64,000 nucleotides of DNA, from NCBI GenBank assembly GCA_963169045.1, contig CAUJDF010000003.1:124001-188000 (forward strand), written 5' to 3'. The translations under genes were made by a program, and so were the position numbers. Positions within the stretch are counted from its first letter, which is position 1; every line of letters starts with the position of its first letter. The DNA comes from Myxococcota bacterium. Its GTDB lineage: Bacteria; Myxococcota_A; Bradymonadia; UBA7976; UBA1532. This document shows positions 12,193 through 49,007 of the stretch, one piece after another. A model generated the notes under the pieces. It did no database searches, was not told the origin of the DNA, and saw nothing but the letters and a program-made list of their open reading frames with translations.

Positions 12193-15186
12193 ATGAAACT
12201 GTCGCGCGGACCGGTGCTCCTCGCCGCCCTGCTCCTGGCCTGTCACGAAGACCCGCAACCCACGCCGCCGCCTGGGGCGGGCGCGTCCGCCGCGCAGGCG
12301 GCGCCGGCGTCGGAGGCCGCGAAGCGGGCGCCGGATCCCGGCCCGACGCTGAAGCGCACGACCGGCCCCATCGCCGCCGAGTCGCTGCCCGACGCGGCGG
12401 TCGACGCCAGCGCGAAGCAGGTATCGGCGGGCCACTTTCTCTTCGCGGCGCCGCTGCCCGCCGACATCGCCGCCGACGCGCCGCTCGACGTCACGCTCGA
12501 GGTGCAGGGCGACCGGCACGGCGTGGCGGTCGTCGAGGCGGCGCCGGGCCAGGACCCGCGGCTGCTCGTGCGCCTCACCGGCGACGCCGCGCCCGCCGAC
12601 GGCCTGACGTTGCAGGCGACGCGCGCCGCGCACCTGCCGACGAAGTGGTCGAAGGCGACGCCGGGGCGCCGCCAGAAGATCGCCGTGAAGGGCGCGGCCG
12701 GCGCGAAGGCCGAGCCGGCGCTCGCGCAGGCCTTCTTCACCGCGGCGGCGGCGCGCTTCGACCGGCTCGGGCGCGTCGACTGGCGCACCACGGTGCCGTT
12801 CTACCAGTTCGCCTCGGGGCGCCTCGCGCTGATGGCCGGCCAGGCCGGCGGACCCCGCGCGGTCGCCGTGACGCCGCCGTCGCGCACCGAGATCGCCGAG
12901 CTGATGTCGCTGTACTCGGGCATGCAGTCGGTCAACGAGGCCCTGCAGCACGACCGCGGCCTGCGCCTCGGCGCCGATACGGCGAAGGCGACCGTCCCGG
13001 TGGCCTCCATCGCCGGCGTGCCGCTGCCCGCGCACCCGTGGGACACCATGATCGCGGAGCTGAAGAAGGCGCCGGTCGTCGAGCCGCTGGCGTCCTTCGT
13101 CCCGCACGACGCGCTCTACGTGCACTTCCACGACCTGCGCTCGCTCGTGGCGTTCGCGCGCGAGATGGACGAGTGGATCACGCCGCTCGGCCGCGTCATC
13201 GAGGCCAGCGCGGGCGAGCGCCACTTCACGCAGGCCTACGAGCGGCAGATCATCATCGAGCGCACGATCCTGTCGGAGAAGCTCGGCCACCTCGCGGCGA
13301 AGGGGGTCGCGCTCGTCGCCGCCGACCCCTTCCTGCGCGAGGGCACCGGCCTGGCGCTGATGTTCCACGTGCGCGACCGCACGCTGCTCGAGACGACGCT
13401 CGGCGCGTTCGAGGCCAAGGCCCGCGCCGCCCACGCCGACCTGAAGGAGGAGACCTGGCGCGCCGGCGAGCGCGACGTGCGCCTGCTCGCCACGCCGGAC
13501 CGCGTCGTCCACCAGCACAAGGTCTGGCTGGCCGACGACGTGCTCGTCCTCGCCAACAGCAGGGCGCTCGTGGAGCAGCTCGCCGCCGTGAAGGACGGCA
13601 AGGCGACGCCGCTCGCGAACGCCGGTGATTTCAAGTACATGCGCGCCGTCTACCCCTTCGACGAGAAGGCCGAGGACGGTTTCGTCTTCGTCAGCGACGC
13701 GTTCGTGCAGAAGGTCACCGGGCCGCGCGCCAAGATCCTGGCCGCCCGTCGCATGGCCGCCGCCGCCGACCTCGCCGCCGTCGCCCACGCCGCGCTGCTG
13801 CACGGCTGGTTCGAGGGCCAGCGGCCGGCCGACGTCGCGGCGCTCGTGAAGAGCGGCTTCCTCGACGCCGCCGAGACGAAGCACGCCGACGGCGCGCCGA
13901 TCGCGCTGCACCCGGAGCGCGGGCCGTCCTCGGCCTGGGGCCGACCGGCGATGCTCGTGCCCATCGACGAGCACCCGCTCGACCGGGTCACCGAGGCCGA
14001 GAAGCTGGCCTACGAGCAGTTCCGCGAGAGCTACCAGCGCTACTGGCGGCAGTTCGTCGATCCCATCGGCGTGCGCGTGCGCCGCGTCGACGGCGGCCGC
14101 GCCCTCGCGCTCGACGCCCGCATACTCCCCATCATCGAGGGCACCGACTACGACGACGTCATCGGCCTCGTCGGCGACACGACCGTGGCGATGGCCTCCC
14201 CCGGCGACGGCCTGCGCTTCACCTTCGCCGTCGGCAAGGAGGCGAAGCTGCGCCGGGAGCTCGACCAGATGGGCCGCATGATGACCGGCCAGGACAAGGT
14301 CGGCCTCGGGTGGCTCGGCGACTGGGTGATGGTCGGCGTCGGCGACCACAGCGCGCTGTGGGACCTCGCGATCCTCGACGGCGACCTCCCCGGCGCCGCG
14401 CGGCCCGAGGACATGGACTCGCGGGGCGAGATGGCCGCGCTCGCGCGGTCGCCGTTCTACGCGGGCGTGCACGTGAAGGACAAGCTGTCGCTCGGCGCCG
14501 CGCTGACGGCGCTGCGCGCGTTCCAGCAGCAGGCGGCCCGCGACTTCATCGAGTGGACGGAGGACGCCGTCTACCGCGACGTCGGCGTCAGCGTCCTGCG
14601 CGAGAAGTCGGACGGGACGCGCCCCGCGAACCCGCTGGCGCTCTACTACGCGATGCCGAAGGACGCGCTCGTCCTCGCCATCAACCGGCCCACGATCGAG
14701 GCGATGATCGACGACGTGCTCGCCGGCCGCGTGCCGGGTGCCGCCGGCGGCGAGCCCGCGCAGGCGGCGTTCGAGGTCCGCCCGCTCGCCGGCGACGGCT
14801 GGCTCGTCAAGACGCTGCTCGGCCTGATCGAGAAGGGGGTCGCCGACGGCCACGCCGCCGCGGCGGACGCGGAGACGGCGCTGCGGCGCGGCCTCCCCGG
14901 CGCGAATCTCGACGGCGAGGCCCATCGCGACGCCGCCCTCGCCTGGCTCGGCGCCGAGCCGCGATCGCCCCACGGCGGCGCCTTCTCGACGAGCGACGAC
15001 GGCCTGACCCACTCGATCTACGGCAGCGAGCTTGCCCCGATCCTCCCGGAGATCCCGGTGCCGGGCGCCCCCATCGGCGAGATCGCCGCGAAGCTCGCCT
15101 CGCTGCGGATGGCCCTCGCCTTCGAGGGCGAGAAGAACCACCGCGCGCTCCATGCCACCGTCGCGTGGGAGAACCGCGCGAAGTAG
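12193..15186 (+). CDS. Very large lipoprotein of unknown function
   Basis: 997 residues. Lipobox LLLAC (Cys16) precedes a short Pro/Ala linker. The body is globular and charged, without evident repeats or membrane segments. It contains alternating alpha/beta stretches such as ALYVHFHDLRSLVAFAREMDEW, GVALVAADPFLREGTG, DVLVLANSRALVEQLA and LALYYAMPKDALVLAINRP. Phrases like SFVPHDALYVHF and MPKDALVLAIN recall DUF3352-like exported proteins and the secreted protein at 58573-59631 (MPEDTAIVVGVNFDRF); distant relationship is possible but unproved. Ends two bases from the convergent AmrS gene. No catalytic motif recognised. Confidence 0.75.
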   Translation: MKLSRGPVLLAALLLACHEDPQPTPPPGAGASAAQAAPASEAAKRAPDPGPTLKRTTGPIAAESLPDAAVDASAKQVSAGHFLFAAPLPADIAADAPLDVTLEVQGDRHGVAVVEAAPGQDPRLLVRLTGDAAPADGLTLQATRAAHLPTKWSKATPGRRQKIAVKGAAGAKAEPALAQAFFTAAAARFDRLGRVDWRTTVPFYQFASGRLALMAGQAGGPRAVAVTPPSRTEIAELMSLYSGMQSVNEALQHDRGLRLGADTAKATVPVASIAGVPLPAHPWDTMIAELKKAPVVEPLASFVPHDALYVHFHDLRSLVAFAREMDEWITPLGRVIEASAGERHFTQAYERQIIIERTILSEKLGHLAAKGVALVAADPFLREGTGLALMFHVRDRTLLETTLGAFEAKARAAHADLKEETWRAGERDVRLLATPDRVVHQHKVWLADDVLVLANSRALVEQLAAVKDGKATPLANAGDFKYMRAVYPFDEKAEDGFVFVSDAFVQKVTGPRAKILAARRMAAAADLAAVAHAALLHGWFEGQRPADVAALVKSGFLDAAETKHADGAPIALHPERGPSSAWGRPAMLVPIDEHPLDRVTEAEKLAYEQFRESYQRYWRQFVDPIGVRVRRVDGGRALALDARILPIIEGTDYDDVIGLVGDTTVAMASPGDGLRFTFAVGKEAKLRRELDQMGRMMTGQDKVGLGWLGDWVMVGVGDHSALWDLAILDGDLPGAARPEDMDSRGEMAALARSPFYAGVHVKDKLSLGAALTALRAFQQQAARDFIEWTEDAVYRDVGVSVLREKSDGTRPANPLALYYAMPKDALVLAINRPTIEAMIDDVLAGRVPGAAGGEPAQAAFEVRPLAGDGWLVKTLLGLIEKGVADGHAAAADAETALRRGLPGANLDGEAHRDAALAWLGAEPRSPHGGAFSTSDDGLTHSIYGSELAPILPEIPVPGAPIGEIAAKLASLRMALAFEGEKNHRALHATVAWENRAK

Positions 15187-18067: not shown

Positions 18068-19192
18068 TCACGGCGCCGGCATGAAGTCCATGCAGCCGGG
18101 CGCGTCGCCGCACTCCGCCGCCGCGATGCATGCGTCCAGCTCATCGCACGGCCGCTCCAGGCATGCCCCGATGCGCGCCTTCACGACGTCGCCCAGGCAA
18201 CCCCAGGCGTGGGTCGTCCCGGTGCCGAGCCACCCGAGGCACCGCGTCGCGGCCGCGTGGCTCGCCTCGAGCAGGGCGCCGGCGTCGCACTCGAGCGCGG
18301 CGGCGCACCGGCGGATGGGATCGTTGCCGTATCCCGCCGCGCACTCGGTGTCGGCGGCGCATGCCTCGAGCGCGCGCAGGTGCTCGGCGGAGATCACGCG
18401 CGCGGCGGCGTGGCAGGCGCGGTAGCACTCGCCGGCCTGTGAGCGGTCGCACGTCCAGGAGGCGTCGCAGATGCGATGGCAGTCGACGACGAGGCTGGTG
18501 GCGGCGAGCTGCCGGCACCACGGCTCGCCGGCGCACGCGGCGTTCGACAGGCAGGGCTCCATCTGACCGCACATCTGTCCCCAGAGGCAGGCCTCGACCG
18601 CGTCGCGCCGCGGCGCCGAGAGACACGCCCAGACGCCGGCCTCTTCGTACGGATTCTCCCGGCATGCCGCTTCGTCGAACCAGCCGCGGCCGTCGTTGCC
18701 GCAGCGTGCGATGGCGTCGCACTGCGCGCCGACGAACCGCTCGCCGTCGGCGCAGCGCAGCCCGAGCAGGCAGCGGCGGCCGAGCGCCTCCGCGTTCTCC
18801 GCCGGCCCGGCAGCGAGGCAGTCGCGCCACGCCGTGTGGGCGTCCGCGTCGAGGGCGCCGGCCATCGCGAGGCACATCTCGAGACACGCGGCATGCGCCT
18901 CGCCCGGCGCGCAGGCCGCCTCGCAGGCGCCCTCGGGCGGCGGCGGCGCGGCGTCCGGCGGCGCCTGCGCCGCGTCCGGGACCAACGCGGCGTCGGGCGG
19001 TGGCGCGGTGTCGCCGGCGTCCGCGTCCTCCGGCGGCGCCGCGTCCTCCGGCGGCGCCCCGGCGTCCGCACCGGGCACCCCGTCGGCGGCGGGCGCCGCG
19101 TCGGGCGCCACCGCCTCCGGCGCGTCCCGCCCGCACGCCGCGAGCGTGCCGGCCAACATCCACACGACCCACTTCCCGACATTCGCGCGCAT
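18068..19192 (-). CDS. Cys-rich lipoprotein
   Basis: 374 residues. Lipobox LAAC places Cys20 as the lipid site. A linker rich in Asp-Ala-Pro units (about 25-85) leads to an all-helical domain with more than 25 cysteines in helix-spaced patterns: CEAACAPGEAHAACLEMC, CRQLAATSLVVDCHRIC, CYRACHAAARV, CAADTEC and RPCDELDACIAAAEC. The repeated C-x3-C / C-x9-12-C spacing suggests stacked disulfide-linked helical hairpins. The linker-plus-Cys-domain design resembles 10365-11246 without sequence identity. Start ATG 19192 with GGAGGGG seven bases upstream. Divergent from the VKOR/AAA operon; an obvious candidate client of oxidative folding, though that is only inference. Confidence 0.78.
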   Translation of the reverse strand: MRANVGKWVVWMLAGTLAACGRDAPEAVAPDAAPAADGVPGADAGAPPEDAAPPEDADAGDTAPPPDAALVPDAAQAPPDAAPPPPEGACEAACAPGEAHAACLEMCLAMAGALDADAHTAWRDCLAAGPAENAEALGRRCLLGLRCADGERFVGAQCDAIARCGNDGRGWFDEAACRENPYEEAGVWACLSAPRRDAVEACLWGQMCGQMEPCLSNAACAGEPWCRQLAATSLVVDCHRICDASWTCDRSQAGECYRACHAAARVISAEHLRALEACAADTECAAGYGNDPIRRCAAALECDAGALLEASHAAATRCLGWLGTGTTHAWGCLGDVVKARIGACLERPCDELDACIAAAECGDAPGCMDFMPAP

Positions 19193-19605: not shown

Positions 19606-20889
19606 ATGTACTTTCGGCTGTTGCACTTCGGCCTGGTCGCGGTGCTGTGCGCCCCCTTCGCGGCCCGGGCCCAGTCGTCCTCGGCGGGCGAGGCGACCTT
19701 CGAGCGGGCGAACGAGCTCTATGAGCTCGCCCAGGACGAGTCCGACCCCGAGAAGGCACGCGCGTTGTACGCGCAAGCCGCCGAGATGCTCGGTCGCCTC
19801 GCCGAGGCCGCGGCGAAGCAGGGCGAAAGCCCGTGCAGGCATGCCAACAACTCGGCACTCGCCTGGGACAACGCGGGCTACGGGGCGCACGCCATCGCCG
19901 CCTTTCGGCGCTGTCTCGACGACACCATCCCCGCCGCCGACGAGAAGCAACGCCGCCGCAAGGAGCAGGCCGCCGAGGGACTCGACAAGAGCCGCCCGAC
20001 CGTCCACCCGCTGACGGTCCAGGTCGACGCCACCCTCCGCCAGCGAGCGAAGACGCTCGTCGCCCAGCGCCTCGAGAACGACGCGTCCGACGGACCGCCG
20101 ATCGTCGTCGAGCTCCGCGGCGAGCAGACGGTCGTCGTCCTCGACGCCGCGCCGTGGCGCCTGTCGCTCCCCGGCGCCGACACGGCGCCGCGCGACGTGC
20201 AGGTGTCGGCGGAGCCGCAGGTCGTCCGTTTCGCCGCGCCCGTCGTCACCGTCCTCCCCAGGGGCGACGACCGCCCGCGCAAGCAGGAGCCGAGCCCGCC
20301 CCACGTCATCGCGAAGGCGACGGAGCCCGCGCGGATGCACATCGCCTGGAGCTGGGTCGCCGGCTCGGCGGCGGCGGTCGGCTGCGGCCTCTGGGTCGCC
20401 GGCGAGCTCGAGTTCCAGAAGGAGCTCTGGACGTCCAAGGGCCACTCCGCGCCGCCGAAGACCGACGCCACGAACGAAGAGAACCTCGAGGCCGGCCTCG
20501 CGTACCGCGGCGCCGGCGTCGCGTTGCTCGGCATGGGCGCCGGGCTCGCGGTGAGCGGCCTCGTGACCGATCCGCTGTGGGGCGCGTCCGACGCGGCCTG
20601 GTACACGCAGATGGGCGTCGGCGCGGCGGTGGCCGTCGGCGGCGTGCTCGCCAGGTCCGGCGCCCGCGACGACATCGATGCCGAGCTCAGGGCGCAGCGC
20701 CCGAACTTCATGGAGATCAACCAATCGTCGACGAAGGTGCACTCGGTGGGCACCGCGCTCGTCGGCCTCGGCGCCGGCCTCGTCGGCGGCGGCGTGTGGG
20801 GGCTCCTGACCGACCGCCACGAGGCGCCGCGCGTCATGCTGACGCCGGGGCCCGAAGGCGCCGGTCTCGGAGCCGCCGGGTCATGGTGA
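19606..20889 (+). CDS. Exported TPR-like protein with C-terminal membrane segments
   Basis: 427 residues, first gene of the operon. A signal peptide (1-22, ending ARA-Q) precedes helical repeats of TPR type (ANELYELAQDESDPEKARALYAQAAEMLGRLAEAA; WDNAGYGAHAIAAFRRCLDD). A beta-rich middle resembling a PEGA-like domain follows (IVVELRGEQTVVVLDAAPWRLSLPG), then three or four Gly/Ala-rich hydrophobic segments (about 250-275, 305-325, 340-360, 385-405). The TPR-PEGA-membrane design is common in Myxococcota beside Ser/Thr kinases. It overlaps the next gene by seven bases. Function unknown; a scaffold in the inner-membrane complex encoded downstream is my inference. Confidence 0.8.
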   Translation: MYFRLLHFGLVAVLCAPFAARAQSSSAGEATFERANELYELAQDESDPEKARALYAQAAEMLGRLAEAAAKQGESPCRHANNSALAWDNAGYGAHAIAAFRRCLDDTIPAADEKQRRRKEQAAEGLDKSRPTVHPLTVQVDATLRQRAKTLVAQRLENDASDGPPIVVELRGEQTVVVLDAAPWRLSLPGADTAPRDVQVSAEPQVVRFAAPVVTVLPRGDDRPRKQEPSPPHVIAKATEPARMHIAWSWVAGSAAAVGCGLWVAGELEFQKELWTSKGHSAPPKTDATNEENLEAGLAYRGAGVALLGMGAGLAVSGLVTDPLWGASDAAWYTQMGVGAAVAVGGVLARSGARDDIDAELRAQRPNFMEINQSSTKVHSVGTALVGLGAGLVGGGVWGLLTDRHEAPRVMLTPGPEGAGLGAAGSW

Positions 20890-22400
20890 CGCGGCGGCGG
20901 TGTCGTTCGCGCGGTGCGCGGCACGCCGCCGTGCTCCTCCTCCTCGCGACGTGGGTCGCGTCGGCGACAGCCCACGCCGAGGACGGCACGATCCAGCTCA
21001 CGCTCGACGCCGTCGATGGCGCCGAGGCGAAGCAGGGGCGCCTGACCGTCTTCACGACGCTGACCTCCGGCGCCGCCGACGTCGTCACCGTCCACGAGCC
21101 GCGCGCCTGGACGGTCACGGTGGACGGCGAGCCCGCGGGCGCCGTGGCCGGCGTCCGTTCGCTCTCGCAGAGCGGGCACGCCCTGGCGCTGGCGATCGTC
21201 GTCGCCGCCGACGACACCATGCTCGGCCAGGAGCAGGCGACGCGCGCCGGCCTGCTGCGGCTGACGGGCGCGCTCGGCCCGCACGACGCGACGACGCTCG
21301 TCTTCGCGCACGACGCGACGTCGGTGGAGAGCCGGGGCGTCTTCGGGCGCAACCGCTACGACCTGGCCAACCGGGTCCGGGCCTTCGCGCCCGGCGGCGA
21401 CCAGCCGCGGCTGCTCTCGGGGCTCTCGTTCGCGCTCGACCGGTTCGCCGACGCGAGCGCGTTGCTCGGGCCCAACCGCGCGGTGCTCGTCGTCACCACG
21501 ACCGACGCCATCGAGCAGGGGCGCGGCCTCGAGACCGTGCTCGGCAAGATCCGCAAGCGCGTCTCCGAGCTCGGCCTGCGCGTCGACACCGTCGCCCTCC
21601 AGGGGACGCGTCCCTCGACGGCGCTCAAGCCGCTGAGCGACCTCGCCCGCGTCTCGGGCGGCCGCTTCTTCCTGACGTCCGAGCCGCTCGACGTCGCCCT
21701 CGGCCGCTACGCCGAGGTGGTCGCCGGGCAGCACGTGCTGACGGTCGACGACTTCCGCGGCGGCGAGGGACGCGACGCGACCGTCCGCGTCGGCCTGTCG
21801 ATGGGCGCCGGCCGCATCGAGGCCGTGCGGCTCGCCTTCGTGCCCGAGAGCGGCGGCCTGTCGCGGACGCTGCTGCTGGGGGTCCTGATCGTCGCCTCGA
21901 TCGCGCTGGCGATCGCCTGGATCCTGCTGTACCGCCACCGGGTGCGGCGGCGGCCCGCGCCGGCCGAGCCCGCGGCGCCGGCGCCGCCCGCGCCCGCGCC
22001 GCCCGCGCCCACGGTGCCCGCGGGCGTGGCGCGCGGCGCGATGGTCGTGTTGCACCCGCCGATCTTGAACGGCCTGCGCTTCGACCTCTTCGACGGCGAC
22101 AACCTGATCGGGCGCGATCCGGCGCGCAGCCGCATCGTGCTCGACGACGCCAGCGTGTCGAAGCTGCACGCCGGTCTGCACATCGACGCCGAGGGGCGCT
22201 TCCGGCTCGCCGATCTCGGCAGCAACAACGGGACGTGGGCGGACGGCGTGCTGCTCGCCGCCGGGCAGAGCGCGCTGGTCGGGCGGGAGACGCCGATCCG
22301 CGTCGGCGAGGTCCGGCTGAAGCTCGACCTCGGCTATCGCGCCGCGCCCGCGGAGACGCGCAAGACGAAGAGAATCCAGCCGCACTCGGCCGGCGGGTGA
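20883..22400 (+). CDS. Membrane protein with vWA-like exported domain and cytoplasmic FHA domain
   Basis: 505 residues. Signal peptide (1-32), then an exported domain of about 290 residues with a von Willebrand A-like core (ALAIVVAADDTMLG, AVLVVTTTDAIEQG, SGGRFFLTSEPLD); the DxSxS metal site is not intact. One membrane helix (330-350) is followed by an Ala/Pro linker and a C-terminal FHA domain (about 395-485) with the phosphothreonine-binding signature GRDP (410-413), SKLHA (426-430) and GSNNGT (446-451). FHA domains bind pThr peptides, so this protein should recruit a phosphorylated partner to the membrane. The kinase encoded at the end of the same operon (27949-29205) is the obvious source of the phosphate. 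Confidence 0.87.
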   Translation: MVTRRRCRSRGARHAAVLLLLATWVASATAHAEDGTIQLTLDAVDGAEAKQGRLTVFTTLTSGAADVVTVHEPRAWTVTVDGEPAGAVAGVRSLSQSGHALALAIVVAADDTMLGQEQATRAGLLRLTGALGPHDATTLVFAHDATSVESRGVFGRNRYDLANRVRAFAPGGDQPRLLSGLSFALDRFADASALLGPNRAVLVVTTTDAIEQGRGLETVLGKIRKRVSELGLRVDTVALQGTRPSTALKPLSDLARVSGGRFFLTSEPLDVALGRYAEVVAGQHVLTVDDFRGGEGRDATVRVGLSMGAGRIEAVRLAFVPESGGLSRTLLLGVLIVASIALAIAWILLYRHRVRRRPAPAEPAAPAPPAPAPPAPTVPAGVARGAMVVLHPPILNGLRFDLFDGDNLIGRDPARSRIVLDDASVSKLHAGLHIDAEGRFRLADLGSNNGTWADGVLLAAGQSALVGRETPIRVGEVRLKLDLGYRAAPAETRKTKRIQPHSAGG

Positions 22401-22431
22401 GGCCGGCGCGGAGCGGGGCGAGAAGGCGAAC

Positions 22432-23724
22432 ATGACGGTCCATCGAGACGACCAATGGGTTCGCGCCATCGGGATGGCGGGCGCGGCCGTGGCGCTGTTC
22501 GGCATCGTCGTCAGCGCGGCGCTGACCTATCTGAAGTTCTCGAGCGACTTCCTCTGCAACAGCTCGGCGTTCAGCGCGTGCAGCGGCGAGGGCTGCGAAG
22601 TGGCGATGAGCAGCGCCTGGTCGACGTGGGGCGGCCTGCCCGTCACCGTCTACGGCGCCGCCTACTACGTGGTCGCCCTCTTCGCCGCCACCGACGTCGC
22701 CGCCGGTCGGCGCATGTTCCACGGCGTCGGCTCGCACGTCGTCATCGCGCTGGGGCTGGTGACGCCCCTCGTCAGCATCGCCATGGCGCTGTATGCCAAG
22801 GTCTGGCTCGACACCTTCTGCAAGTACTGCGCGCTGCTCTACCTGGTCAGCGCCCTCTCGCTGGTCGTGGCCGTCGCCTGCCTCTTCAAGGTGCGTCGGC
22901 CACGGCTCCGCGATCTGGTGCGGCGGGGCGCGCTGCGCACCGGGGCGCGCAACGGAGCGATCCTCGCGGCGTCGCTGTTCGCCGTCGCGACGACGGGGCA
23001 GGGGTTCGCGTACCAGGCGGCGCAGCGGATGGCCGATCCGCCCGAGGAGTGCATCGGCCTCGACGAGCCGCCGCCCGAGACGACCCTCGTCCAGGGCAGC
23101 AAGGACCCGAGTTGGGTGTTCGCCGTCTTCGTCGACCCGGCGTGCAACTACTGCCGCAGCCTGCACGCGCAGCTGGGCGAGCTGATCGCGAACGCGGCCT
23201 ACGGCTCGAAGTTGCAGCTGCGCTACTACTACGTGCCGCGCGACCAGGAGTGCTATCCGCAGTTCCCGATCCAGAGCGAGTTCTCGAGGAAGCACTCCGC
23301 CTGCCGGGCCGCGCGCGCGATCGAGTGCGTCGAGCGTCGCAGTCCGGGGGCGGGCGTCCGCATGCTCGACGCGCTCTTCGTGCACGCCTACCGCACCGAG
23401 AAGCCCATCTACGACGCGGCGGGCCTGGTGAGCCAGGCCGGACGGGCCGGGGTCGTCGCCCGAGACGACGCGTCCGACCCGTTCTTCAAGTGCATCCACG
23501 ACGATGAGCAGGTCGCGATCCGCATCAAGACCCACATGCGTTACGCCATCAACCACGGCATGCGGGTCACCCCCTGGATGCAGGCCGCGCCTGTCGGCAA
23601 GGACGGTACGCCCGTCTGGAAGTGCGCCATCAAGTTCGAGGGCAACAAGAGCCGCACGGTCTTCGAGGAGCTGCTCGAGGGCGACATGCCACCTCGGGTC
23701 GCACGATGCATGGGAGGGGAGTGA
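22432..23724 (+). CDS. VKOR-thioredoxin fusion (membrane disulfide-bond-forming enzyme)
   Basis: 430 residues. The N-terminal half is a vitamin K epoxide reductase (VKOR) domain with four or five membrane helices: loop cysteines CSGEGC (50-55), the family hallmark WGGLPVTVYG, and the quinone-side active site C130-K-Y-C133. After a further helix (about 176-196) comes a DsbA/G-like thioredoxin domain with active site C238-N-Y-C241 in VFVDPACNYCRSLH and a later cis-Pro region RVTPWMQ. In other bacteria VKOR passes electrons from a DsbA-like partner to quinone, replacing DsbB; the fusion links both. More Cys occur in the C-terminal half (QECYP, KHSACRAARAIEC, FKCIHD). It should oxidise Cys-rich exported proteins. 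Its TGA shares one base with the next ATG. Confidence 0.92.
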   Translation: MTVHRDDQWVRAIGMAGAAVALFGIVVSAALTYLKFSSDFLCNSSAFSACSGEGCEVAMSSAWSTWGGLPVTVYGAAYYVVALFAATDVAAGRRMFHGVGSHVVIALGLVTPLVSIAMALYAKVWLDTFCKYCALLYLVSALSLVVAVACLFKVRRPRLRDLVRRGALRTGARNGAILAASLFAVATTGQGFAYQAAQRMADPPEECIGLDEPPPETTLVQGSKDPSWVFAVFVDPACNYCRSLHAQLGELIANAAYGSKLQLRYYYVPRDQECYPQFPIQSEFSRKHSACRAARAIECVERRSPGAGVRMLDALFVHAYRTEKPIYDAAGLVSQAGRAGVVARDDASDPFFKCIHDDEQVAIRIKTHMRYAINHGMRVTPWMQAAPVGKDGTPVWKCAIKFEGNKSRTVFEELLEGDMPPRVARCMGGE

Positions 23725-24731
23725 TGGACGCGGTCAAGGCTTTTCTCATCGGCATCGGCGTGCTCCTCGTCGGGCTGGTCGGGGTGACCATCTATCTGTT
23801 CATTCCCAAGGAACCGGACCCGGTCGAGACGAAGTCCGCGGGCGGGGGGATCGTGCTGCCGCCGGAGTGCGAGGATGGCACCCGGCCGTGCGGCCGGGGG
23901 CAGCAGTGCGTCGAAGGCTTCTGCATGCGGTGGGATCCGCCCGCCTGCGGCAAGGACCAGCCCTGCTCCGACAAGTGCACCTGCGAAGGCAACTTCAAGT
24001 GCGACGCCGAGCGCGTCTGTCGCGTGCAGGCCCCCTCGGCCGACGAGGTCTGCAAGGACCCCCGCGTCGTCGCCGCCGTCAAGCGGCTGGCCGAGGAGTG
24101 TCCCGGTGGCGACCTGAAGGCCTGCAAGCCCGACGAGTGGGCGAAGTTCGTCATGAAGGAGGGGCGGTTCGACGAGCTGATCGCCAACTTCCCCGACAAG
24201 ATCACCATCCACTTCGACATCGGGTTCCCGCGGACCGACACGTCCTGGCCGCCCGACCGCGACATCGAGGCCCACTACCTCGAGGGGCTCCGCAAGCACC
24301 GCGCTGCGCTCGAGCGGGCCGAGGTCATCTTCGTGATCGGCCGCGCCTCCCCCATCGGCAATTGGCACATGAACCGCGACCTGGCTTTCCGGCGCATGAA
24401 CGCGGCCGACCTCCTGATCGCGCAGGCGCTCCAGCCCGAGAACGCGGGCGGCATCAAGCAGTCGGAGCTGGACGCCAAGCTCAAGGCCATCAACGACAAG
24501 CTGAAGCACGCCGCCCTCGGGCAGGACCGTCCGCTGAACCTCGGCTTCTTCACGCAGCACTATGGCAAGAACATCGTTCTCTGGAGCCAGGAACAGCAGG
24601 AGCGCCTGGGCCGGGCGCTCGCGCTCGGCGAGCAGGGCGACGTCATCGCCGAGAAGGAGAAGGCGTGGGCGTTCGCCACGCTGAACCAGGTGGCGATCGT
24701 CGTGCCGGTGCCCTGCGGGGGCGCTCGATGA
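23724..24731 (+). CDS. Membrane-anchored Cys-rich protein with OmpA-like C-terminus
   Basis: 335 residues. One N-terminal membrane helix (6-27) is followed by a Cys-rich segment (49-110) with eleven cysteines, including CGRGQQCVEGFC and CGKDQPCSDKCTC. The C-terminal half (about 150-320) looks like a diverged OmpA-like peptidoglycan-binding domain: ITIHFDIGFP, ALERAEVIFVIGRASPIGNW, then NRDLAFRRMNAADLLI in place of the usual N-x2-LS-x2-RA. It may therefore tie the complex to the cell wall. GGGAGGGGAG precedes the ATG, which overlaps the previous stop by one base; the stop overlaps the next ATG by four. No family assigned to the whole protein. Confidence 0.82.
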   Translation: MDAVKAFLIGIGVLLVGLVGVTIYLFIPKEPDPVETKSAGGGIVLPPECEDGTRPCGRGQQCVEGFCMRWDPPACGKDQPCSDKCTCEGNFKCDAERVCRVQAPSADEVCKDPRVVAAVKRLAEECPGGDLKACKPDEWAKFVMKEGRFDELIANFPDKITIHFDIGFPRTDTSWPPDRDIEAHYLEGLRKHRAALERAEVIFVIGRASPIGNWHMNRDLAFRRMNAADLLIAQALQPENAGGIKQSELDAKLKAINDKLKHAALGQDRPLNLGFFTQHYGKNIVLWSQEQQERLGRALALGEQGDVIAEKEKAWAFATLNQVAIVVPVPCGGAR

Positions 24732-24928
24732 CCACCGCGACCCGGCCGTCGCGGCCCCTGCTCGGGATTGCGCTCCTCGTCTCGTCGATGCTCGCCGCCG
24801 TCACGTCGCTCGGCTGGGGCCTCCTCGCCTGGCGTGTCCACTCGCTCGAGACCGAGAACCAGCGCGTCGCCGCGAGCTGCACCTGCTGCGGCGTGCCGGC
24901 GGTCGCGGTGCCCGTGGGGGGGGACTGA
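24728..24928 (+). CDS. Small single-pass membrane protein with CTCC motif
   Basis: 66 residues: one long hydrophobic helix (about 12-35), a short helical stretch (RVHSLETENQRVAA) and a CTCCG cluster near the C-terminus. It is held in place by ATGA overlap with the upstream gene and one base to the downstream gene, which argues that it is real. The clustered cysteines next to thioredoxin-domain proteins suggest a redox-active or metal-binding accessory subunit (inference). Confidence 0.75.
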   Translation: MTTATRPSRPLLGIALLVSSMLAAVTSLGWGLLAWRVHSLETENQRVAASCTCCGVPAVAVPVGGD

Positions 24929-24929
24929 G

Positions 24930-27900
24930 ATGGCGGGCCGACCGTCGATGGCCGACGCCGTCCTCGCCACGAGCGAGGCGCTGGCGCGGTCGCGGGACGA
25001 GGCGCACGGCAGCAGCCATCTCGTCCACGCGCTCCTCGATCACTTCCAGCGTCATGGCACCGCCGCCATGCGCGAGGTCCAGAAGACGAAGGCCGCGCTG
25101 TCCGACGCGATGGCCGAGGGCGACGAGCCCGGCGCCTTCGACGAGATGCTGCAGCGCGCGAGCTGGCAGACGCCGATGCAGGGCGAGCCGCGCCTGACGC
25201 CCGAGAGCCTGCTGATGGCGGTGCTCCATACCCCGGGGTGCGCCGCCTGGCGGCTCTTCGCGCCCGACGAACGGGAGTACCTGCTGGCGCACCTGCCGAG
25301 CGGCTGGCCGCGGTCGCGCGCCGACCTCGAGCCGGAAGGCGAGACCATCGAGCCGCTGCTGTCTCGCATCGAGGCATTGCTCGCCCGCAACGAGCCGCTG
25401 ATGCTGGTCGGCGAGCCGGGCGTCGGCAAGCGCCTCCTCGTTCGCACGGCGCTGCAGCGGGCCCGGCGATACATGCTGGCCGACTGGCTCGAGTGCGGCC
25501 GGCTGTGGGGCGATTCTCGGAAGCCGTATCGATTGCAGCAGGAGTGCAAGCGCCTCATCAGTCTGCGCCTGCAGCAGCCGCAGGACGGTGCGGTGCTGGT
25601 GCTCGTCGAGCCCGGCGACGGGCCGCGCGCACATCACCGGGAGCTGCTGGCGGCCCTGCGCCAGGGGCAGCGCGCGGCGGGGGTGAGCCTCGTCACGACG
25701 AGCCGCTGGTCCCCCGGCGAGCTCGAACGCAGCCGGCGCCTGAGCAGCGAGCTGGCCCGCTTCCTCGGGACGAACACCGTCGAGGTGCCGGCGCTGCGCA
25801 AGCGGCCCCAGGACATCGCGCCGCTCGCCACCTACTTCCTCGCGCGCGTGCGCGAGCAGGCGCGGGCCGAGGGGCTGGACCTCGAGATCCCGGCCGGCCT
25901 CGACGGGGCGTCGCGCGCGCTGCTCGAGGCCCACCACTGGCCCGGCAACGTCACCGAGCTGCGGGACGTCGTCGAGGGGGCGGCGCTGAACTGCCGCGAT
26001 GGGCGCCTGCGCCTGATCGTGCCCGGAGCCCACCTGACGCCCGGCGCCACCGAGCCGCACGCGGCGCTCGGCCCGGGCGACATCGACGACCGGTTCGTGG
26101 CGACCGCGCGCGACACCCGGTCCGGGCCGCCCGTCCCGGCGGCGCCTCCGGTCGAGGACGACACCGCCGAGCGGGGCACCGCCCTGACCGTGCCCCTCGA
26201 CGCCGTGCCGGAGCTCGCGGCGACGACGCCGGAGTGGGAGCGGCCGACGGTGGTCGCGCGCCGGCCGGAACGCCGGCCCGCCGTGCCGGCGGCGCTGCTG
26301 GTGGACGACGACGACTCGAGCGCGCCGGCGGCGCTGCCCCCGCCGGCGGCGCAGCCGGCGGCGGCCGCGACGCCCGCGGCGGCCGCGACGCCCGCGGCGG
26401 CCTCGACGCCCGCGGCCGCGGCGAAGCCCGTCGCCGCCGCGAAGTCGCCGCCCGTGCCGGCCGCGCCGCCCCTGCCGGCGGTGGTGCCGGCCCGCGCCGA
26501 GCCGGTCCCACAGGCGAGCGAGCCCCGTCGCTCCCGGCCGATCGCCGAGGACGCGGGTGCGCCCACGCCGCCCGACGCCGATGACGGCGAGCCGCCCGCG
26601 CGCACGACGCGGCGACTCGACGGCGGCCGCCGGAGCAGCTGGCTCGGCGTGGTCTTCTCCGTCGCCTTCCTGGCCTGGTCCGGCTACGCGATCACCCAGA
26701 TCGTCGACCTGCTGAAGCTGGCCGGCGAGCAGTCGGACCGCCGGACGGCGTTGGCGGAGACGGCGGCGCGGTGTCCGCCCCCCGCGGCCGGGGGCGAGCA
26801 GCCGCCACCACCCGATCCGGTGGAAGTCACGGCCGAGCCGGTCGTCGAAGACGTGGCCCAGTCGGGCGTCACGATGCAGACGTTCCAGCGCGGCATCCGC
26901 CTCGTCGACTTCGACGACCACCGCCTCGAGCGCGTCGAGAGCGCCGCCCGCATGAGCGCGTCGATGCCGCTGTCGTCGGTGCTGCAGGACCGGCGCGTCT
27001 ACGTCGTCAATCTCTGGGCGGTCTGGTGCAAGGACTGCAAGTTGGAGCTGCCGCTCTTCCGCGACCTCTTCGCGCAGCGGCGGCCCGACTGGGGCGACAA
27101 GGTCGCCTTCGTGCCGATCAACGTCGAGGACGAGAGCAACCCCAACGCCAAGAAGCTCGAGTTCCGGGGGGTCATGCCGCCGACCGACCGCTTCATGGTC
27201 GACCTGCGCAAGCCTTCGCTGCCGACCCGCCTCGAGTCCAAGAACCTCTACTTCGGCGACCTGCCCCTCACGCTGGTCGTCGACGAGCGGCGCCGCGTCC
27301 GCTGGCTGCTCAGCGGCGCGCTCAACGACGAACGCATCGCCGCCATGGGCGCGGCCATCGACGGCCTGCTCAAGCAGCCCGCCCCGGCGCCGGCCGCCGC
27401 CGCGTGCCCCAACGGCGTCTGCTCCCCCCAGGAGCGCGAGAAGGGGACGTGCGCGAAGGATTGCTGCGTCTGCAACGACAACTACTGCGATCGCCAGGCC
27501 CCGTGCACCGAGAACGTCCCCGGCACCGAGTACTACTGCGCCGTCGACTGCCACTGCGGCAACGGCGTGTGCGAGGACCTGGACCTGCGGTCGCCCAAGG
27601 AGGAGTGCAAGCTCGACTGCGACGGATGCAACGACGGCGTCTGCGCCAAGGGTGACGCCGAGCGGTGCCGCGGCAGCGACGAGTGCGACGGCTGCGGCAA
27701 CCGCAAGTGCGATCCCACCGACAAGACGCGGTGCCCCCAGGAGTGCAACTCGAAGCCGCGCACGTGCCTTGACGCGCCCGATGAGTTCACGTGCGTGCGG
27801 TGCCTGGACAAGGGGGGCTGCTGCGGCGACGGCAGGGTCGACGCCGCGGGCGGCGAGAACTGCAGGACGTGCAAGGAGGACGCGCGCTGCGCGTCCGACG

Positions 27901-27944
27901 AGCGCTGTGACAAACTCGGGAACTGCGTCCGAAGGCTGGAGTGA
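24930..27944 (+). CDS. AAA+ / transmembrane / thioredoxin / Cys-rich fusion protein
   Basis: 1004 residues with an unusual order of domains. Residues 1-125 are helical and resemble a Clp N-terminal repeat (SEALARSRDEAHGSSHLVHALL). 135-355 form an AAA+ module: Walker A GEPGVGKR (161-168), Walker B-like VLVLVEPGD (222-230), and a sigma-54-activator-like lid HHWPGNVTELRDVVEGA (335-351); the sigma-54 contact loop GAFTGA is absent. 390-570 are a Pro/Ala linker. 571-595 is a membrane helix. 690-815 is a TlpA/ResA-like thioredoxin domain with W699-C700-K-D-C703 in VVNLWAVWCKDCKLEL. 826-999 hold 32 cysteines in motifs such as CGNGVCEDLD and CNDGVCAKGD. The topology puts the ATPase in the cytoplasm and the thioredoxin and Cys tail in the periplasm. 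I know no described family with this architecture. Confidence 0.88.
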   Translation: MAGRPSMADAVLATSEALARSRDEAHGSSHLVHALLDHFQRHGTAAMREVQKTKAALSDAMAEGDEPGAFDEMLQRASWQTPMQGEPRLTPESLLMAVLHTPGCAAWRLFAPDEREYLLAHLPSGWPRSRADLEPEGETIEPLLSRIEALLARNEPLMLVGEPGVGKRLLVRTALQRARRYMLADWLECGRLWGDSRKPYRLQQECKRLISLRLQQPQDGAVLVLVEPGDGPRAHHRELLAALRQGQRAAGVSLVTTSRWSPGELERSRRLSSELARFLGTNTVEVPALRKRPQDIAPLATYFLARVREQARAEGLDLEIPAGLDGASRALLEAHHWPGNVTELRDVVEGAALNCRDGRLRLIVPGAHLTPGATEPHAALGPGDIDDRFVATARDTRSGPPVPAAPPVEDDTAERGTALTVPLDAVPELAATTPEWERPTVVARRPERRPAVPAALLVDDDDSSAPAALPPPAAQPAAAATPAAAATPAAASTPAAAAKPVAAAKSPPVPAAPPLPAVVPARAEPVPQASEPRRSRPIAEDAGAPTPPDADDGEPPARTTRRLDGGRRSSWLGVVFSVAFLAWSGYAITQIVDLLKLAGEQSDRRTALAETAARCPPPAAGGEQPPPPDPVEVTAEPVVEDVAQSGVTMQTFQRGIRLVDFDDHRLERVESAARMSASMPLSSVLQDRRVYVVNLWAVWCKDCKLELPLFRDLFAQRRPDWGDKVAFVPINVEDESNPNAKKLEFRGVMPPTDRFMVDLRKPSLPTRLESKNLYFGDLPLTLVVDERRRVRWLLSGALNDERIAAMGAAIDGLLKQPAPAPAAAACPNGVCSPQEREKGTCAKDCCVCNDNYCDRQAPCTENVPGTEYYCAVDCHCGNGVCEDLDLRSPKEECKLDCDGCNDGVCAKGDAERCRGSDECDGCGNRKCDPTDKTRCPQECNSKPRTCLDAPDEFTCVRCLDKGGCCGDGRVDAAGGENCRTCKEDARCASDERCDKLGNCVRRLE

Positions 27945-27948
27945 TGCC

Positions 27949-29205
27949 ATGAGCACCCGCATGCTCGGCGACGATGTGGTGCGGCCGTCGGCCTACCACT
28001 TCTGCCCGCTCTGCCACGTCAAGGTCGACCGGCAGGCGACGCTCTGCCCCTCCCGCGAGTGCGGGCAGCGGCCGCCCGACGACGGCTGGCCGTCGCTGCC
28101 GTACGTCCTCGACGGCCGGTACCGCCTCGTCGAACAGATTGGCCGCGGTGGCATGGGGGTCGTCTACAAGGCGCAGCCGCTCCAGAACGGCAACGTCGTC
28201 AACGAGTGGGTGGCGGTGAAGCTGCCGCTCAGCGAGGCCCACTGGCGCCTGCTCGTCCGCAAGGTGGATCGCGAGCTCAAGGTCGCGCCGTTCCTCGGCA
28301 TGCTCGGCGGCTTCGTCGACGTCCGCGAGGCCCAGCGCGCCCACTGGCCCCTCTACTACGTGATGGAGTACGTGGCCGACCCGACGCTCGAACGCATCCT
28401 GTTCGATCGCCGCGGTCCGCTCGAGGTGGGACGCGCGTGCGCCATCGCGCGGGCCATCGCCGTCGCGTTGTCGCGGGCGCACGCCCGCGGGCTCGTCCAT
28501 TGCGACGTCAAGCCGGCCAACATCTTCGTCGGCGAGGCCGAAGGCCACCCGCCCCGCGTCCTGATCTGCGATCTCGGCAACGCCCGGATCCTGCGCGAGG
28601 ACGACGACGAGCAGGCGAAGGGCCGCCTGCGCGCCACCCATCCGTTCGGGACGACGCGCTACCTCGCGCCCGAGCAGGTCGACCCCAACGCCCAGGTCGA
28701 CGGCCGCGCGGACATCTACTCCCTGGGCGTCGTCTTCTACGAGATGTTGACGGGGCAGTGGCCCTACCCCGAGACCGAGGACGCAGGCGAACAGATCCGT
28801 CACCACCTGCAGACGGGCGCCCAGCGCGCGGTCCCCAACGTGCCGGCGCCCGTCCTCAACACGGTGCTGCGGTGCCTCGAGAAGGACCCCGCGGACCGCT
28901 TCGCGCGCATGGAGGAGCTCGTCCAGACGCTCGACCTGGCGCTGCAGTCGGCGGCGACGCTCGATCCGCAGTTCAACACGCTCGACCAGACCCGCCCGCT
29001 CCGCCGCCGGACGCAGCACATCGCCGACGTGCCCGCCCCGCCCGCGCCGTCCGAGCGGCCGCGAGACGCCGACGGGCTCGAGGAGACGATCCGCCTCGAG
29101 AAGGACCTCCCGATCGAAGAGCCGCAAGGGTCGGGCTGGTGGAGGGTCTGGGTGGCCGTCGCCGCCGGGATGACAGTCGCCTACACCTTCACGTTCGGCT
29201 GGTAG
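27949..29205 (+). CDS. Hanks-type Ser/Thr protein kinase with zinc-ribbon N-terminus and C-terminal TM
   Basis: 418 residues, last gene of the operon. The N-terminus carries CPLCHVKVDRQATLCPSREC (19-38), a probable zinc ribbon. Kinase motifs: G-loop IGRGGMGVVY (64-73), VAVK Lys91, catalytic loop HCDVKPAN (184-191, Cys replacing the usual Arg of HRD), DLG in place of DFG (208-210), and APE in YLAPEQ (238-243). After a Pro-rich tail with Thr residues a C-terminal hydrophobic segment (about 397-418) should anchor it. HCD instead of HRD suggests no activation-loop phosphorylation dependence. GGAG precedes the ATG and four bases separate it from the fusion gene. Likely phosphorylates partners read by the operon's FHA protein. 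Confidence 0.92.
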   Translation: MSTRMLGDDVVRPSAYHFCPLCHVKVDRQATLCPSRECGQRPPDDGWPSLPYVLDGRYRLVEQIGRGGMGVVYKAQPLQNGNVVNEWVAVKLPLSEAHWRLLVRKVDRELKVAPFLGMLGGFVDVREAQRAHWPLYYVMEYVADPTLERILFDRRGPLEVGRACAIARAIAVALSRAHARGLVHCDVKPANIFVGEAEGHPPRVLICDLGNARILREDDDEQAKGRLRATHPFGTTRYLAPEQVDPNAQVDGRADIYSLGVVFYEMLTGQWPYPETEDAGEQIRHHLQTGAQRAVPNVPAPVLNTVLRCLEKDPADRFARMEELVQTLDLALQSAATLDPQFNTLDQTRPLRRRTQHIADVPAPPAPSERPRDADGLEETIRLEKDLPIEEPQGSGWWRVWVAVAAGMTVAYTFTFGW

Positions 29206-29646: not shown

Positions 29647-29958
29647 TCAACCGCCGGCGAGCGGCGCGAGCAGATACACCTGGTCGCCGTCGCGCAGCGC
29701 GCGCTCGAGGTGCTCGTCGACGGGGCAGCGTTCGCCGTTGAGCATCAGCGTGTGCCGCAGGTGCGGGCTGTGCTCGATGGCATCGCGGAGCGCCACGCCC
29801 TCGCGGTCCGCCGCGTCCAGCAGGTCGCGCAGCACGGCGCCCGGCGCCAGCGCGAAGGTGCGGTCGACGTCGCGCCATCCGTCGCCGATGCGTCCCTTGA
29901 TGATCACGCGCACCCGCACGCGGTCCGCCCGCCCGAACAGGCGGTCCCTGAGGCTCAC
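29647..29958 (-). CDS. ThiS/MoaD-like ubiquitin-fold protein
   Basis: 103 residues with a beta-grasp pattern ([66 protein letters not shown]) and the terminal Gly-Gly required for sulfur transfer by adenylation and thiocarboxylation. ThiS/MoaD proteins donate sulfur in thiamine or pyranopterin synthesis. Its GTG overlaps the stop of the upstream aldehyde:ferredoxin oxidoreductase gene (GTGA), so it probably serves the tungsto- or molybdopterin of that enzyme. The first 20 residues are an extra basic lead not usual for MoaD. Confidence 0.85.
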
Positions 29959-31979
29959 TCCTCGACCCAGCCGTCGAGCAGCGCCGTCAGGCCGAGCTCG
30001 TCGGCGCGGCGGCGTGCGAGCCGGCCGGTCTCCGGGTTCCAGTGCATGTGATGGAAGTAATCGTCGCGCAGCGCGGGCAGCGGCACGCGCACGCCCTTCA
30101 GCGGTCCGCTGCGCAGCAGGCCGTCGCCTTCGCCCATCATGCGCGGATGCGGCTGGAAGTGTGAAGGCAGCAGCCCCTCGCGCCGGTTGAACGCGGACCG
30201 CAGGTTCTGGATGCGCTCGCCGCACTCGAGCAGGTCCTTCTCGGTCAGCGTCCAGCCGGTGAGCGAGTGCACGAGGTCGAGCCAGGGCAGCCCGCCGGTC
30301 AGCGAGGTGAACATGCACAGCCCCAGGCCGTTCATGACCTGGTGCGCGTTGCTGTGGTGCGCCTGGGCGCGGCCTTTGCCGTCGGTGCCCTTCCAGGAGA
30401 CGGTCGTCTCCGCGGCGGGCGCGGCGTCGCGCAGGGGGAACTTCGCGCCGAAGGTCTCGTTCCACGAGGCCGAGCCGGCGGTGTGCCGCCCCGGGGTGGG
30501 ATCGGCGATGTAGGTCACGCCCATCAGCGAGGTGAAGCGCGGGTCGTGGTACGCCGGCTCCTGCCCGCCCACGTGCACGGCGAAGCGCTCGCTGCCTCGG
30601 CCGACGTGCGCCGCGGCGCGCTTCACGCCATGGCACAGCCACGCGCCGCAGCCGTCGCCGCGGCCCATCTTCTCGGTGAGCGCGAGCGCCCCTTCGCCGT
30701 TGCCCCACCGCATGTCGATGCCATCGAGATCGGCCGCCGTCAGGATGCCTTCTTCGACCGCCTCGCATACCCAGCCGAGGGTCGCGCTCGAGCTGACCGC
30801 GTCGATGCCATACCGGTTGCAGGCGTCGTGGCACGCGGTCACCAGCTCGAGGTCGTCGTTGAGCAGCGACGCGCCGAAGCCGCAGATGGTCTCGTAGTCC
30901 GGGCGGCGGACGTCGCGCAGGCCGCGGCCCTTCACGGCCACCACGCCCTTGCACGGCGCCGGGCAGTCGCCGCAGCTCAGCTTTTTCGTGACGTACTTGT
31001 CGACCTGCGCCCCGTCGAGCTTCCAGCTGCGCGTCGCGAGCGGAAAGTCCGTGGAGCCGACGCCCTTCCAGTTCTTCACCGGCGCGTCGCCGTTCTCGAC
31101 GCTGAGCGACACGGCGGCGGTGGTGCCGCGGTCGCTCCACAGCTGCCTCATCGCCGGCTGCGGCGCCTCGATCTTGATGCCGAAGCGCGAGAAGGCCCGG
31201 TACAGCCAGCCGAGCCGGCGCTTCGGCTTCGACAGCCAGACCATCAGCCGCATGAGCGGGCCGATGTCGCGCTTGTACTCGCCCGTGACCTGCTTGCAGA
31301 GCGCCCGGAAGCGCGCCTCGTGCTTCACGGGGACGTCGCCGGTGCCGCCGACGACGATCGCCTTGAGGTGCTTGCTGCCGTAGATCGCGCCGAAGCCCTG
31401 CCGGCCGAAGGCGTGATAGCGGTCGTTCATCACCGAGGCGATGCTCGCCCGGCCCTCGCCCGCCGGACCGATCGCCGAGACGCCCACCTCGCTCTTGCCG
31501 CCGTAGCGCGCCCGCAGCGCGTCGAACGTCTCCGGGATCTGCAGCCCCCACAGGTCGCCGGCGGGCTCGATCAGCACCTCGCCGTCGCGCACGACGAGCA
31601 CGGACGGCGCCGGCGCGCGTCCGGTGACCAGCAGCGCGTCGTAGCCGGCGTGCCGGAGCTGGCTGGCGACGCTGCCGCCGGAGTTGCTGTCGGCCCAGCC
31701 GCCGGTGAGCGGCGACTTGCCCACGATCTGGATGCGGCCGGAGAACGGCGTGCGCGTCCCCGTCAGCAGGCCCGACACGATGGCGAAGCACGCCTCGGGC
31801 GCGAGCGGGTCGGCGCCGGGCGGGAAGTGTTTCCAGAGCAGCCACGCGCCGAGGCCGTAGCCGCCGAGGAACTGCCGGTACACGGCTTCGTCGACGGTCT
31901 CGACGCGGTGCGCGCCGCTCGTCAGATCGACCACGAGCACGCGGCCGTGCGTGCCGAACCGGGTGGGCGTGCCGGCCAT
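29955..31979 (-). CDS. Aldehyde:ferredoxin oxidoreductase (AOR) family enzyme
   Basis: 674 residues, normal AOR length (a second ATG at 31982 would add one residue). N-terminal [26 protein letters not shown] and [20 protein letters not shown] fit the bis-pyranopterin-binding domain. The [4Fe-4S] ligands C336-x2-C339-x3-C343 ([12 protein letters not shown]) and a late Cys in NGLGLCMF are conserved. The enzyme oxidises aldehydes to acids with ferredoxin, using tungsten (or Mo) pyranopterin; the true substrate of this subfamily is unknown. The ThiS/MoaD-like gene follows with GTGA overlap. GGAGG lies four to seven bases before the tandem ATGs. Suggests low-potential metabolism at least part of the time. 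Confidence 0.92.
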
Positions 31980-32069
31980 CATCGAACCTCCGCGGATGGA
32001 CGGAGCGCACGGTAGCACGGCGGCTGCGCCCGAGATGCCGGTCTTCCTTCGCGATCCGCCGAAGTGCCG

Positions 32070-32402
32070 ATGCCGGACGACGACGCGGCCCCGCAGGCGT
32101 GGCTCGGCGACGTCGGGGCGGACGACGAGCGCGGCGGCGACGACTGCACGACCCGCCGCAATGCCTGCATCGCGTCGTTCAACCGGATGTAGGCCGACCC
32201 GAACCGCGAGGCGGCGGTCGACGGCAGATTGGCCGCGCGCGATCGCTGCGAGGCCGCCTGCGCGGACGGCGAGACCCGCTGCGTCGCCTACTGCCGGGAG
32301 CAGTGCGCGCCCGCGCCCCAGCCGTCGGCCCACCCCCGCGCCGCGCCCGCGGCCCGCGTCGGCCCGACGCCATCCCTGGCCGCGCCGTGTGGGCTTTGTT
32401 AG
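32070..32402 (+). pseudogene. Possible interrupted Cys-rich gene
   Basis: In one frame, ATG 32070 opens 40 codons to TAG 32190-32192, and the same frame then continues for 69 codons to TAG 32400-32402. The parts before ([14 protein letters not shown]) and after ([22 protein letters not shown], first six Cys residues) share the C-x(3-7)-C spacing of the Cys-rich exported proteins elsewhere here and end in a Pro/Ala tail. This looks like one small gene split by a nonsense codon. No clear ribosome-binding site or signal peptide is visible, so it may be a decayed remnant. It fills most of the 430-base gap between the AOR and cyclase genes. Confidence 0.35.

Positions 32403-45863: not shown

Positions 45864-49007
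<3,144 letters not shown>

Follow-up and report, generated by a model that had tools for sequence, protein, structure and literature searches.

We propose that a seven-gene operon in a Myxococcota genome encodes cell-envelope machinery dedicated to the oxidative folding of Cys-rich exported lipoproteins, a reading to which we assign a probability of about 0.58. The original prediction had already placed disulfide formation in exported Cys-rich proteins at the centre, and at the level of sequence comparison this role is now well supported, because the operon has a VKOR-OmpA-thioredoxin core, because CxxC motifs are intact (both motifs in 24 of 25 homologues of the VKOR-DsbA fusion g3 at module loci, and the thioredoxin motif in 24 of 24 homologues of the conserved portion of g6), and because modules in another family, f34, are linked to genes for Cys-rich lipoproteins.

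In our model, g3 would insert disulfides into Cys-rich exported lipoproteins and pass the electrons to quinone, while the membrane-anchored TlpA-like thioredoxin of g6 would reduce or reshuffle wrong bonds. The OmpA-like domain of g4 may anchor or position these enzymes, and the Cys-rich region of g4, the CxCC protein g5 and the tail of g6 could serve in redox relay or as docking parts that resemble clients. Phosphorylation of cytoplasmic parts by the tail-anchored kinase g7 would tune the module and, in the family to which the window belongs, the FHA protein g2 might read the g7 phospho-mark, with the TPR protein g1 as a scaffold. We infer the identity of the client here, the direction of the thiol chemistry and the roles in relay, docking, anchoring and kinase regulation, as well as the assembly of the operon products into a single physical complex.

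The Dsb and VKOR systems described so far serve exported proteins at large. Here the enzyme genes are tied to those for an OmpA-like anchor, a TlpA-like editor, a CxCC membrane protein and a Ser/Thr kinase and, in one family, to arrays of genes for Cys-rich surface lipoproteins. The parts of this module are known individually. What appears to be new is that the combination is conserved, has multiplied and is linked to Cys-rich lipoproteins; no description of this was found in the openly accessible literature, in line with the original prediction, which knew of no system with this gene set. If the model is correct, it would add a client-dedicated, possibly phosphorylation-controlled system for oxidative folding, and would account for the maturation of the many myxobacterial proteins that contain dozens of Cys, such as TraA-like stalk receptors.

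The operon and its redox proteins

The window, by which we mean the whole 64-kb stretch of DNA that was analysed, corresponds to G000:C3:124001-188000 of a 9.0 Mb genome and has a GC content of ~74%. An ORF check gave exact coordinates for the seven operon genes, g1 to g7, all on the (+) strand; the junctions have overlaps of 7, 1 and 4 bases and gaps of 31, 1 and 4 bases, exactly as first described. Pfam recognized FHA in g2, VKOR and thioredoxin in g3, a sigma54-type AAA lid and thioredoxin in g6, and a protein kinase in g7, with no family above cut-off in g1, g4 or g5, and NCBIfam added only sub-threshold names for the operon genes. If the usual topology rules hold, a hydropathy scan places the FHA domain of g2 in the cytoplasm, and the g6 thioredoxin, most of g4 and the CxCC terminus of g5 outside it. 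Downstream of the operon, a gene at 29955-32333 (-) encodes an aldehyde ferredoxin oxidoreductase (AFOR), probably tungsten- or molybdenum-dependent, with the end of a MoaD-like ORF just downstream of it.

Known VKOR-DsbA fusions oxidize thiols and pass the electrons to quinone. In g3 (22432..23724, (+)), a VKOR domain (22483-22872; PF07884, 45.1 bits against a cut-off of 27.5, E 1.4e-11) is fused to a DsbA/DsbC-like thioredoxin domain, with one CxxC in the VKOR part (CKYC) and another in the thioredoxin domain (CNYC), and a profile search against the PDB matches VKOR-Trx fusions. Such a fusion, the VKORC1/thioredoxin domain protein (PDB 3kp9, 4nv5), shares with g3 the VKOR with its CxxC, the loop Cys and the fused thioredoxin with a CxxC, but the partner domain of g3 is nearer to the DsbC/DsbG/DsbA types and the gene is set in an operon with OmpA-like, TlpA-like, CxCC and kinase genes. 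One homologue, at L071:10916-12223 (-) in genome G232, has lost the catalytic Cys of both domains, with the rest of the module kept.

Pal and OmpA use an Asp for binding to peptidoglycan (diaminopimelate). The g4 protein (23724..24731, (+); 14 Cys) has an N-terminal TM, a Cys-rich domain (~23868-24053) and an OmpA-like domain (~24171-24716). Its AlphaFold model (pLDDT 88) shows a TM helix at the N-terminus, a small Cys-rich domain built as a beta-hairpin and, at the C-terminus, an OmpA-like domain for which the best PDB matches in Foldseek are PorE, YfiB, OprF, Pal and OmpA (E ~1e-3 to 1e-2, probability near 1), and a g4 profile searched against the PDB agrees (4b5c, E 0.0016). Compared with Pal and other proteins with an OmpA C-terminal domain, g4 has the same fold and, in the alignment, keeps the diaminopimelate-binding Arg, but it adds the TM anchor and the Cys-rich domain and has Ser in place of the binding Asp, leaving the Asp-Arg pair incomplete, so that peptidoglycan binding by g4 is uncertain. 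C126 and C134 of g4 are invariant in 18 sequences drawn from both groups that were compared. A 1293-aa ORF at L131, considered as a Rosetta-stone fusion of g4 to the conserved portion of g6, was rejected; it has frame jumps and reads through into a downstream TPR protein, and is most likely a frameshift artefact.

The adjoining g5 gene (24728..24928, (+)) encodes a 66-aa single-TM protein with a CxCC motif at its end (SCTCC, 24875-24889). A small TM gene with C-x-C-C or C-x-x-C-C lies between g4 and the conserved portion of g6 at 12 of 23 loci counted by script, to which reading added CxCC small-TM genes at L071 and L072; the counterpart in genome G002 was assigned by position and weak similarity. 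An invariant SCNCCP has been reported in the stalk of the TraA receptor of Myxococcus (PMC12045341), and the SCTCC of g5 resembles it, which may be coincidence. TraA-TraB outer-membrane exchange likewise pairs a Cys-rich stalk receptor with an OmpA-domain protein, but TraAB is the receptor pair itself, with no VKOR, thioredoxin or kinase described (PMC12045341). The resemblance may serve as a lead, the homology being putative.

The largest protein, g6 (24930..27944, (+)), joins a cytoplasmic sigma54-type AAA region (25341-26009) to a TM (26649-26705), a periplasmic TlpA-like thioredoxin domain with the motif WCKDC (~26976-27299) and a Cys-rich tail (27405-27926). The conserved portion, which we call g6C, runs from the TM through the thioredoxin to the Cys-rich part. 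With the TlpA, ResA and StoA oxidoreductases g6 shares the TM anchor and the periplasmic WCxxC thioredoxin; it differs from them in its Cys-rich tail, in having no cytochrome-maturation neighbours that we saw and, in the window's genome, in its fusion to the cytoplasmic AAA region. At L132:10627-12510, the thioredoxin gene of the module is shortened and adjoins two IS3-like transposase genes.

Sco and PcuC proteins deliver copper, and by analogy the CxCC motif of g5 and the TlpA-like domain of g6 could point to the handling of copper or another metal, with the CxCC and Cys-rich regions binding Cu(I) or Zn and the thioredoxin keeping these sites reduced. We regard this as quite improbable, given that no oxidase, Sco or copper gene was found among the genes scanned, that VKOR oxidizes thiols, which is the wrong direction, and that the linkage is to disulfide-repeat lipoproteins.

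Recurrence and ancestry of the module

When 96 relatives were searched with g3, one strong match besides itself was obtained (33% identity), on contig C54 of G002 (JAKLJY010000149.1, Myxococcota bacterium MAG.78), which is of the same family but another genus; a scan of genome contigs with this g3 pair matched only that contig and one Bacteroidaceae VKOR. Homologues of all seven operon genes lie on the G002 contig, in an order that differs from that of the window. The cluster runs in one direction, starting with the VKOR-DsbA fusion, the OmpA-like Cys-rich protein, the small TM protein and a TM-thioredoxin-Cys-rich protein without AAA, and continuing with a kinase-like protein (HLDLTPGS), a second kinase, the TPR protein, the vWA-like/FHA protein and a caspase-like peptidase. 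The last of these, at L031:6676-7962 (-) directly after the FHA gene, is of the EACC1-associated type with an AgmX/PglI tail. Since all seven genes have homologues together elsewhere, the gene set is not due to chance.

Full-length g4, sought with a two-sequence profile in 379 genomes of the phylum, was found in G000 (the window's genome), G002, G232, G365 (two copies) and G105, and a better profile applied to the family of G232 showed that genomes of genus g240 carry up to ~six full-length copies each, with further copies in G382 and G383. The operon order in family f34 is kinase, VKOR-DsbA, g4, small TM gene and g6C, with the TPR gene divergent or adjacent; the core order kinase-VKOR-g4-g5-g6C is seen in G232, G365, G382 and genus g240. 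Pairwise distance matrices of g3, g4, g6C and g7 over the module loci correlate with r 0.90-0.98, and thus the kinase and the redox genes diverged as a unit. The search for joint conservation, which had been suggested as the check on the original prediction, therefore came out in its favour, with seven genes together in G002 and a core that recurs in a second family. The operon might instead consist of unrelated genes under one promoter, in favour of which neither the AAA part nor the gene for the FHA protein is conserved with the rest outside the window's family, but the joint conservation with rearranged order in G002, the duplication of the unit in f34 and the correlated distances make this explanation highly improbable. 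Next to the second module copy of G365, at L073:9806-17087 (+), lie genes for an FHA-sigma54 regulator and a kinase.

A simpler arrangement is far more widespread. A shorter g4 relative, consisting of a TM or lipoprotein start and the OmpA-like domain with no Cys-rich part, was detected in 117 of the 379 phylum genomes (E <=1e-6). Among the 30 best g4-like loci, a VKOR-DsbA gene is adjacent in 26 and a thioredoxin gene in 29, typically as an overlapping VKOR / OmpA-like / thioredoxin triad in the same order as g3-g4-g6 (for example, L075 and L076). The window's genome itself has such a triad on contig C47, as well as a pair of g4-like and thioredoxin genes on contig C8. Given the phylum-wide triad and the C47 copy, the operon in the window is best read, from these sequence comparisons, as a paralogous, elaborated descendant of the triad. 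The triad itself, an uncharacterised conserved operon in much of the phylum, is testable in culturable species.

Divergent VKOR-kinase pairs of family f1 were also considered as possible modules and were rejected as a different, PII-like-linked VKOR locus. The window's family has a second VKOR-DsbA locus (L032:5144-10708, L033, L040-L044), with a divergent kinase, a PII-like gene and VKOR.

Kinase, FHA and AAA parts

The kinase g7 (27949..29205, (+)) has an N-terminal CxxC..C..C ribbon, a Ser/Thr kinase domain (28120-28923; Pfam Pkinase, E 4.7e-35) and a hydrophobic C-terminal tail, and is of the Hanks type by its kinase fold, VAVK, HCDVKPAN (HxDxKPxN) and DLG (DxG). Its homologues are the first gene of the operon in family f34. 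Control of the disulfide module by the kinase is plausible, because the kinase is co-conserved across module loci, usually with active motifs. The G002 homologue, with HLDLTPGS, is probably an inactive pseudokinase, and the same cluster encodes a second kinase with intact motifs.

The FHA protein g2 (20883..22400, (+)) has an exported vWA-like region, a TM at residues 330-348 and a cytoplasmic FHA domain (aa 408-466, 22104-22280; Pfam E 1.4e-11). Its periplasmic part gave no Pfam match for vWA and has no clear MIDAS motif. A full-length vWA-like/FHA homologue was found in G002 only, which makes just two loci, both in the window's family; outside this family, the FHA proteins near modules are different or missing. 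This protein therefore cannot be counted in the conserved set, where the original prediction had put it, and of the kinase-FHA signalling proposed there it is the co-conserved and co-diverging kinase that stands.

For g1 (19606..20889, (+)), the features are a signal peptide, a TPR-like helical solenoid, a beta domain and ~four membrane helices; the AlphaFold model (pLDDT 77) shows the solenoid, the beta domain and four long helices, and gave only weak structure matches, TPR structures among them. A g1 homologue is present in G002, and in most f34 loci it is divergent from the module. Among the original domain assignments, those for g3, g4, g6 and g7 were borne out, whereas TPR in g1 comes from these weak structure matches and the vWA likeness of g2 is by eye only.

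The AAA region of g6 is NtrC/PspF-like by sequence but lacks what marks a sigma-54 activator: there is no match to a GAFTGA-like loop, the Asp of Walker B is replaced by Val (the region reads VLVLVEPGDGP), and no HTH family was matched by Pfam, NCBIfam or profile search in the portion examined. The region looks degenerate, and it was found in none of the relatives aligned, only in the window's genome. On these grounds we set aside ATP hydrolysis as a core element, which it had been in the original prediction. The AAA part and the FHA protein appear to be additions of the window's lineage and should not be central to the model.

It is also conceivable that the operon is a piece of a named locus, either a T6SS (FHA, PpkA, TssL-OmpA) or a Ccm/Res locus with a TlpA-like thioredoxin. 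FHA, kinase and OmpA-like genes occur in T6SS too, and the FHA protein of G002 has a weak TagH score (19.9 bits against a cut-off of 120). However, the FHA scores lie far under the TagH and YscD cut-offs, and among the operon genes and flanking genes scanned there was no Tss, Ccm, Res or cytochrome family, with TssB/C/J/K/M, ClpV, CcmF/H and ResB/C all absent. A match of this kind had been named at the outset as grounds for giving up the prediction; as things stand, it is the reading of the operon as a secretion or cytochrome-maturation locus that is refuted, and we give it hardly any probability.

The kinase also lends itself to another reading, with the module sensing redox state or envelope stress. 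The kinase would then be controlled by the state of the thiols in g3, g4, g5 and g6, or by the binding of Cys-rich surface proteins, the FHA protein and other cytoplasmic targets would be the output, and disulfide formation would be the signal and not the product. Consistent with a sensor, the kinase shares the operon and co-diverges with the redox genes, an FHA gene, FHA-sigma54 regulator or PP2C-like gene lies near some modules (L031, L073, L074), and a module was kept even though its VKOR had lost the catalytic Cys. We nevertheless consider a sensor rather unlikely. The ancestor seen across the phylum is made up of VKOR, OmpA-like and thioredoxin genes, so that the redox triad also occurs without this kinase arrangement. 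In addition, hardly any of the kinase sequence is periplasmic, and the enrichment of Cys-rich lipoprotein arrays would be left unexplained.

Cys-rich lipoproteins near modules

Modules of genus g240 adjoin tandem genes for Cys-rich lipoproteins of 400-530 aa with 6-10% Cys. In those examined, an export signal at the N-terminus, which usually includes a lipobox-like Cys, is combined with DUF4215/TIGR02232 myxo_disulf_rpt Cys-rich repeats and a DUF1554 endostatin-like head. Across six g240 genomes, 23 of 99 listed DUF1554 genes lie <=10 kb from a g4 copy (0.78 expected), and 13 of 28 g4 copies have a DUF1554 gene <=10 kb away (0.77 expected); these counts are not all independent, since tandem copies and loci shared by sister species are among them. 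In the same genus, 400 kb of evenly placed background holds 5 Cys-rich genes, versus >30 in the ~380 kb of 19 f34 module loci. The 11 f34 genomes with full-length g4 have 4-26 DUF1554 genes each, versus 0-5 in the 18 without. A Cys-rich neighbour is also present at several module subtypes and in G232, another genus, and there is no Cys-rich gene within the 20 kb module neighbourhood of L072, L073, L074, L129 and L133. We raise, tentatively and as a doubtful extension of the model, the idea that Myxococcota have client-dedicated disulfide machines, in which each paralogous kinase-VKOR-OmpA-CxCC-thioredoxin module would serve a family of Cys-rich stalk lipoproteins of its own, encoded next to it, with the kinase gating when these are matured. 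One DUF1554 head, encoded at L118:15001-16215 (-), weakly resembles the Leptospira LenA/LenB endostatin-like outer-membrane proteins.

DUF1554 was rejected as the client in the family to which the window belongs, as the protein is absent from both G000 and G002, and the client in the window must therefore be of another Cys-rich family. The nearest candidate is the Cys-rich (8.8%) lipoprotein encoded at 18068..19192 (-), divergent from g1, which has the lipobox LAAC and no Pfam or NCBIfam match. With ~6 genes of this kind per 280 kb of the genome, its position beside the operon is by itself not significant. The original remark that the window has several Cys-rich proteins is true yet describes something ordinary, with 2 Cys-rich genes outside the operon in the 64-kb window and 6 in 280 kb of the same genome, and a local enrichment is not significant against that genome. 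Also in the window are a 1047-aa lipoprotein with 10.4% Cys and MXAN_6577-like Cys-rich repeats (45864-49007, (-)) and a 997-aa lipoprotein-like ORF with no Pfam family (12193-15186, (+)). At the second VKOR-DsbA locus of the window's genome, the gene for a 650-aa Cys-rich (6.8%) lipoprotein ends 1 base before VKOR.
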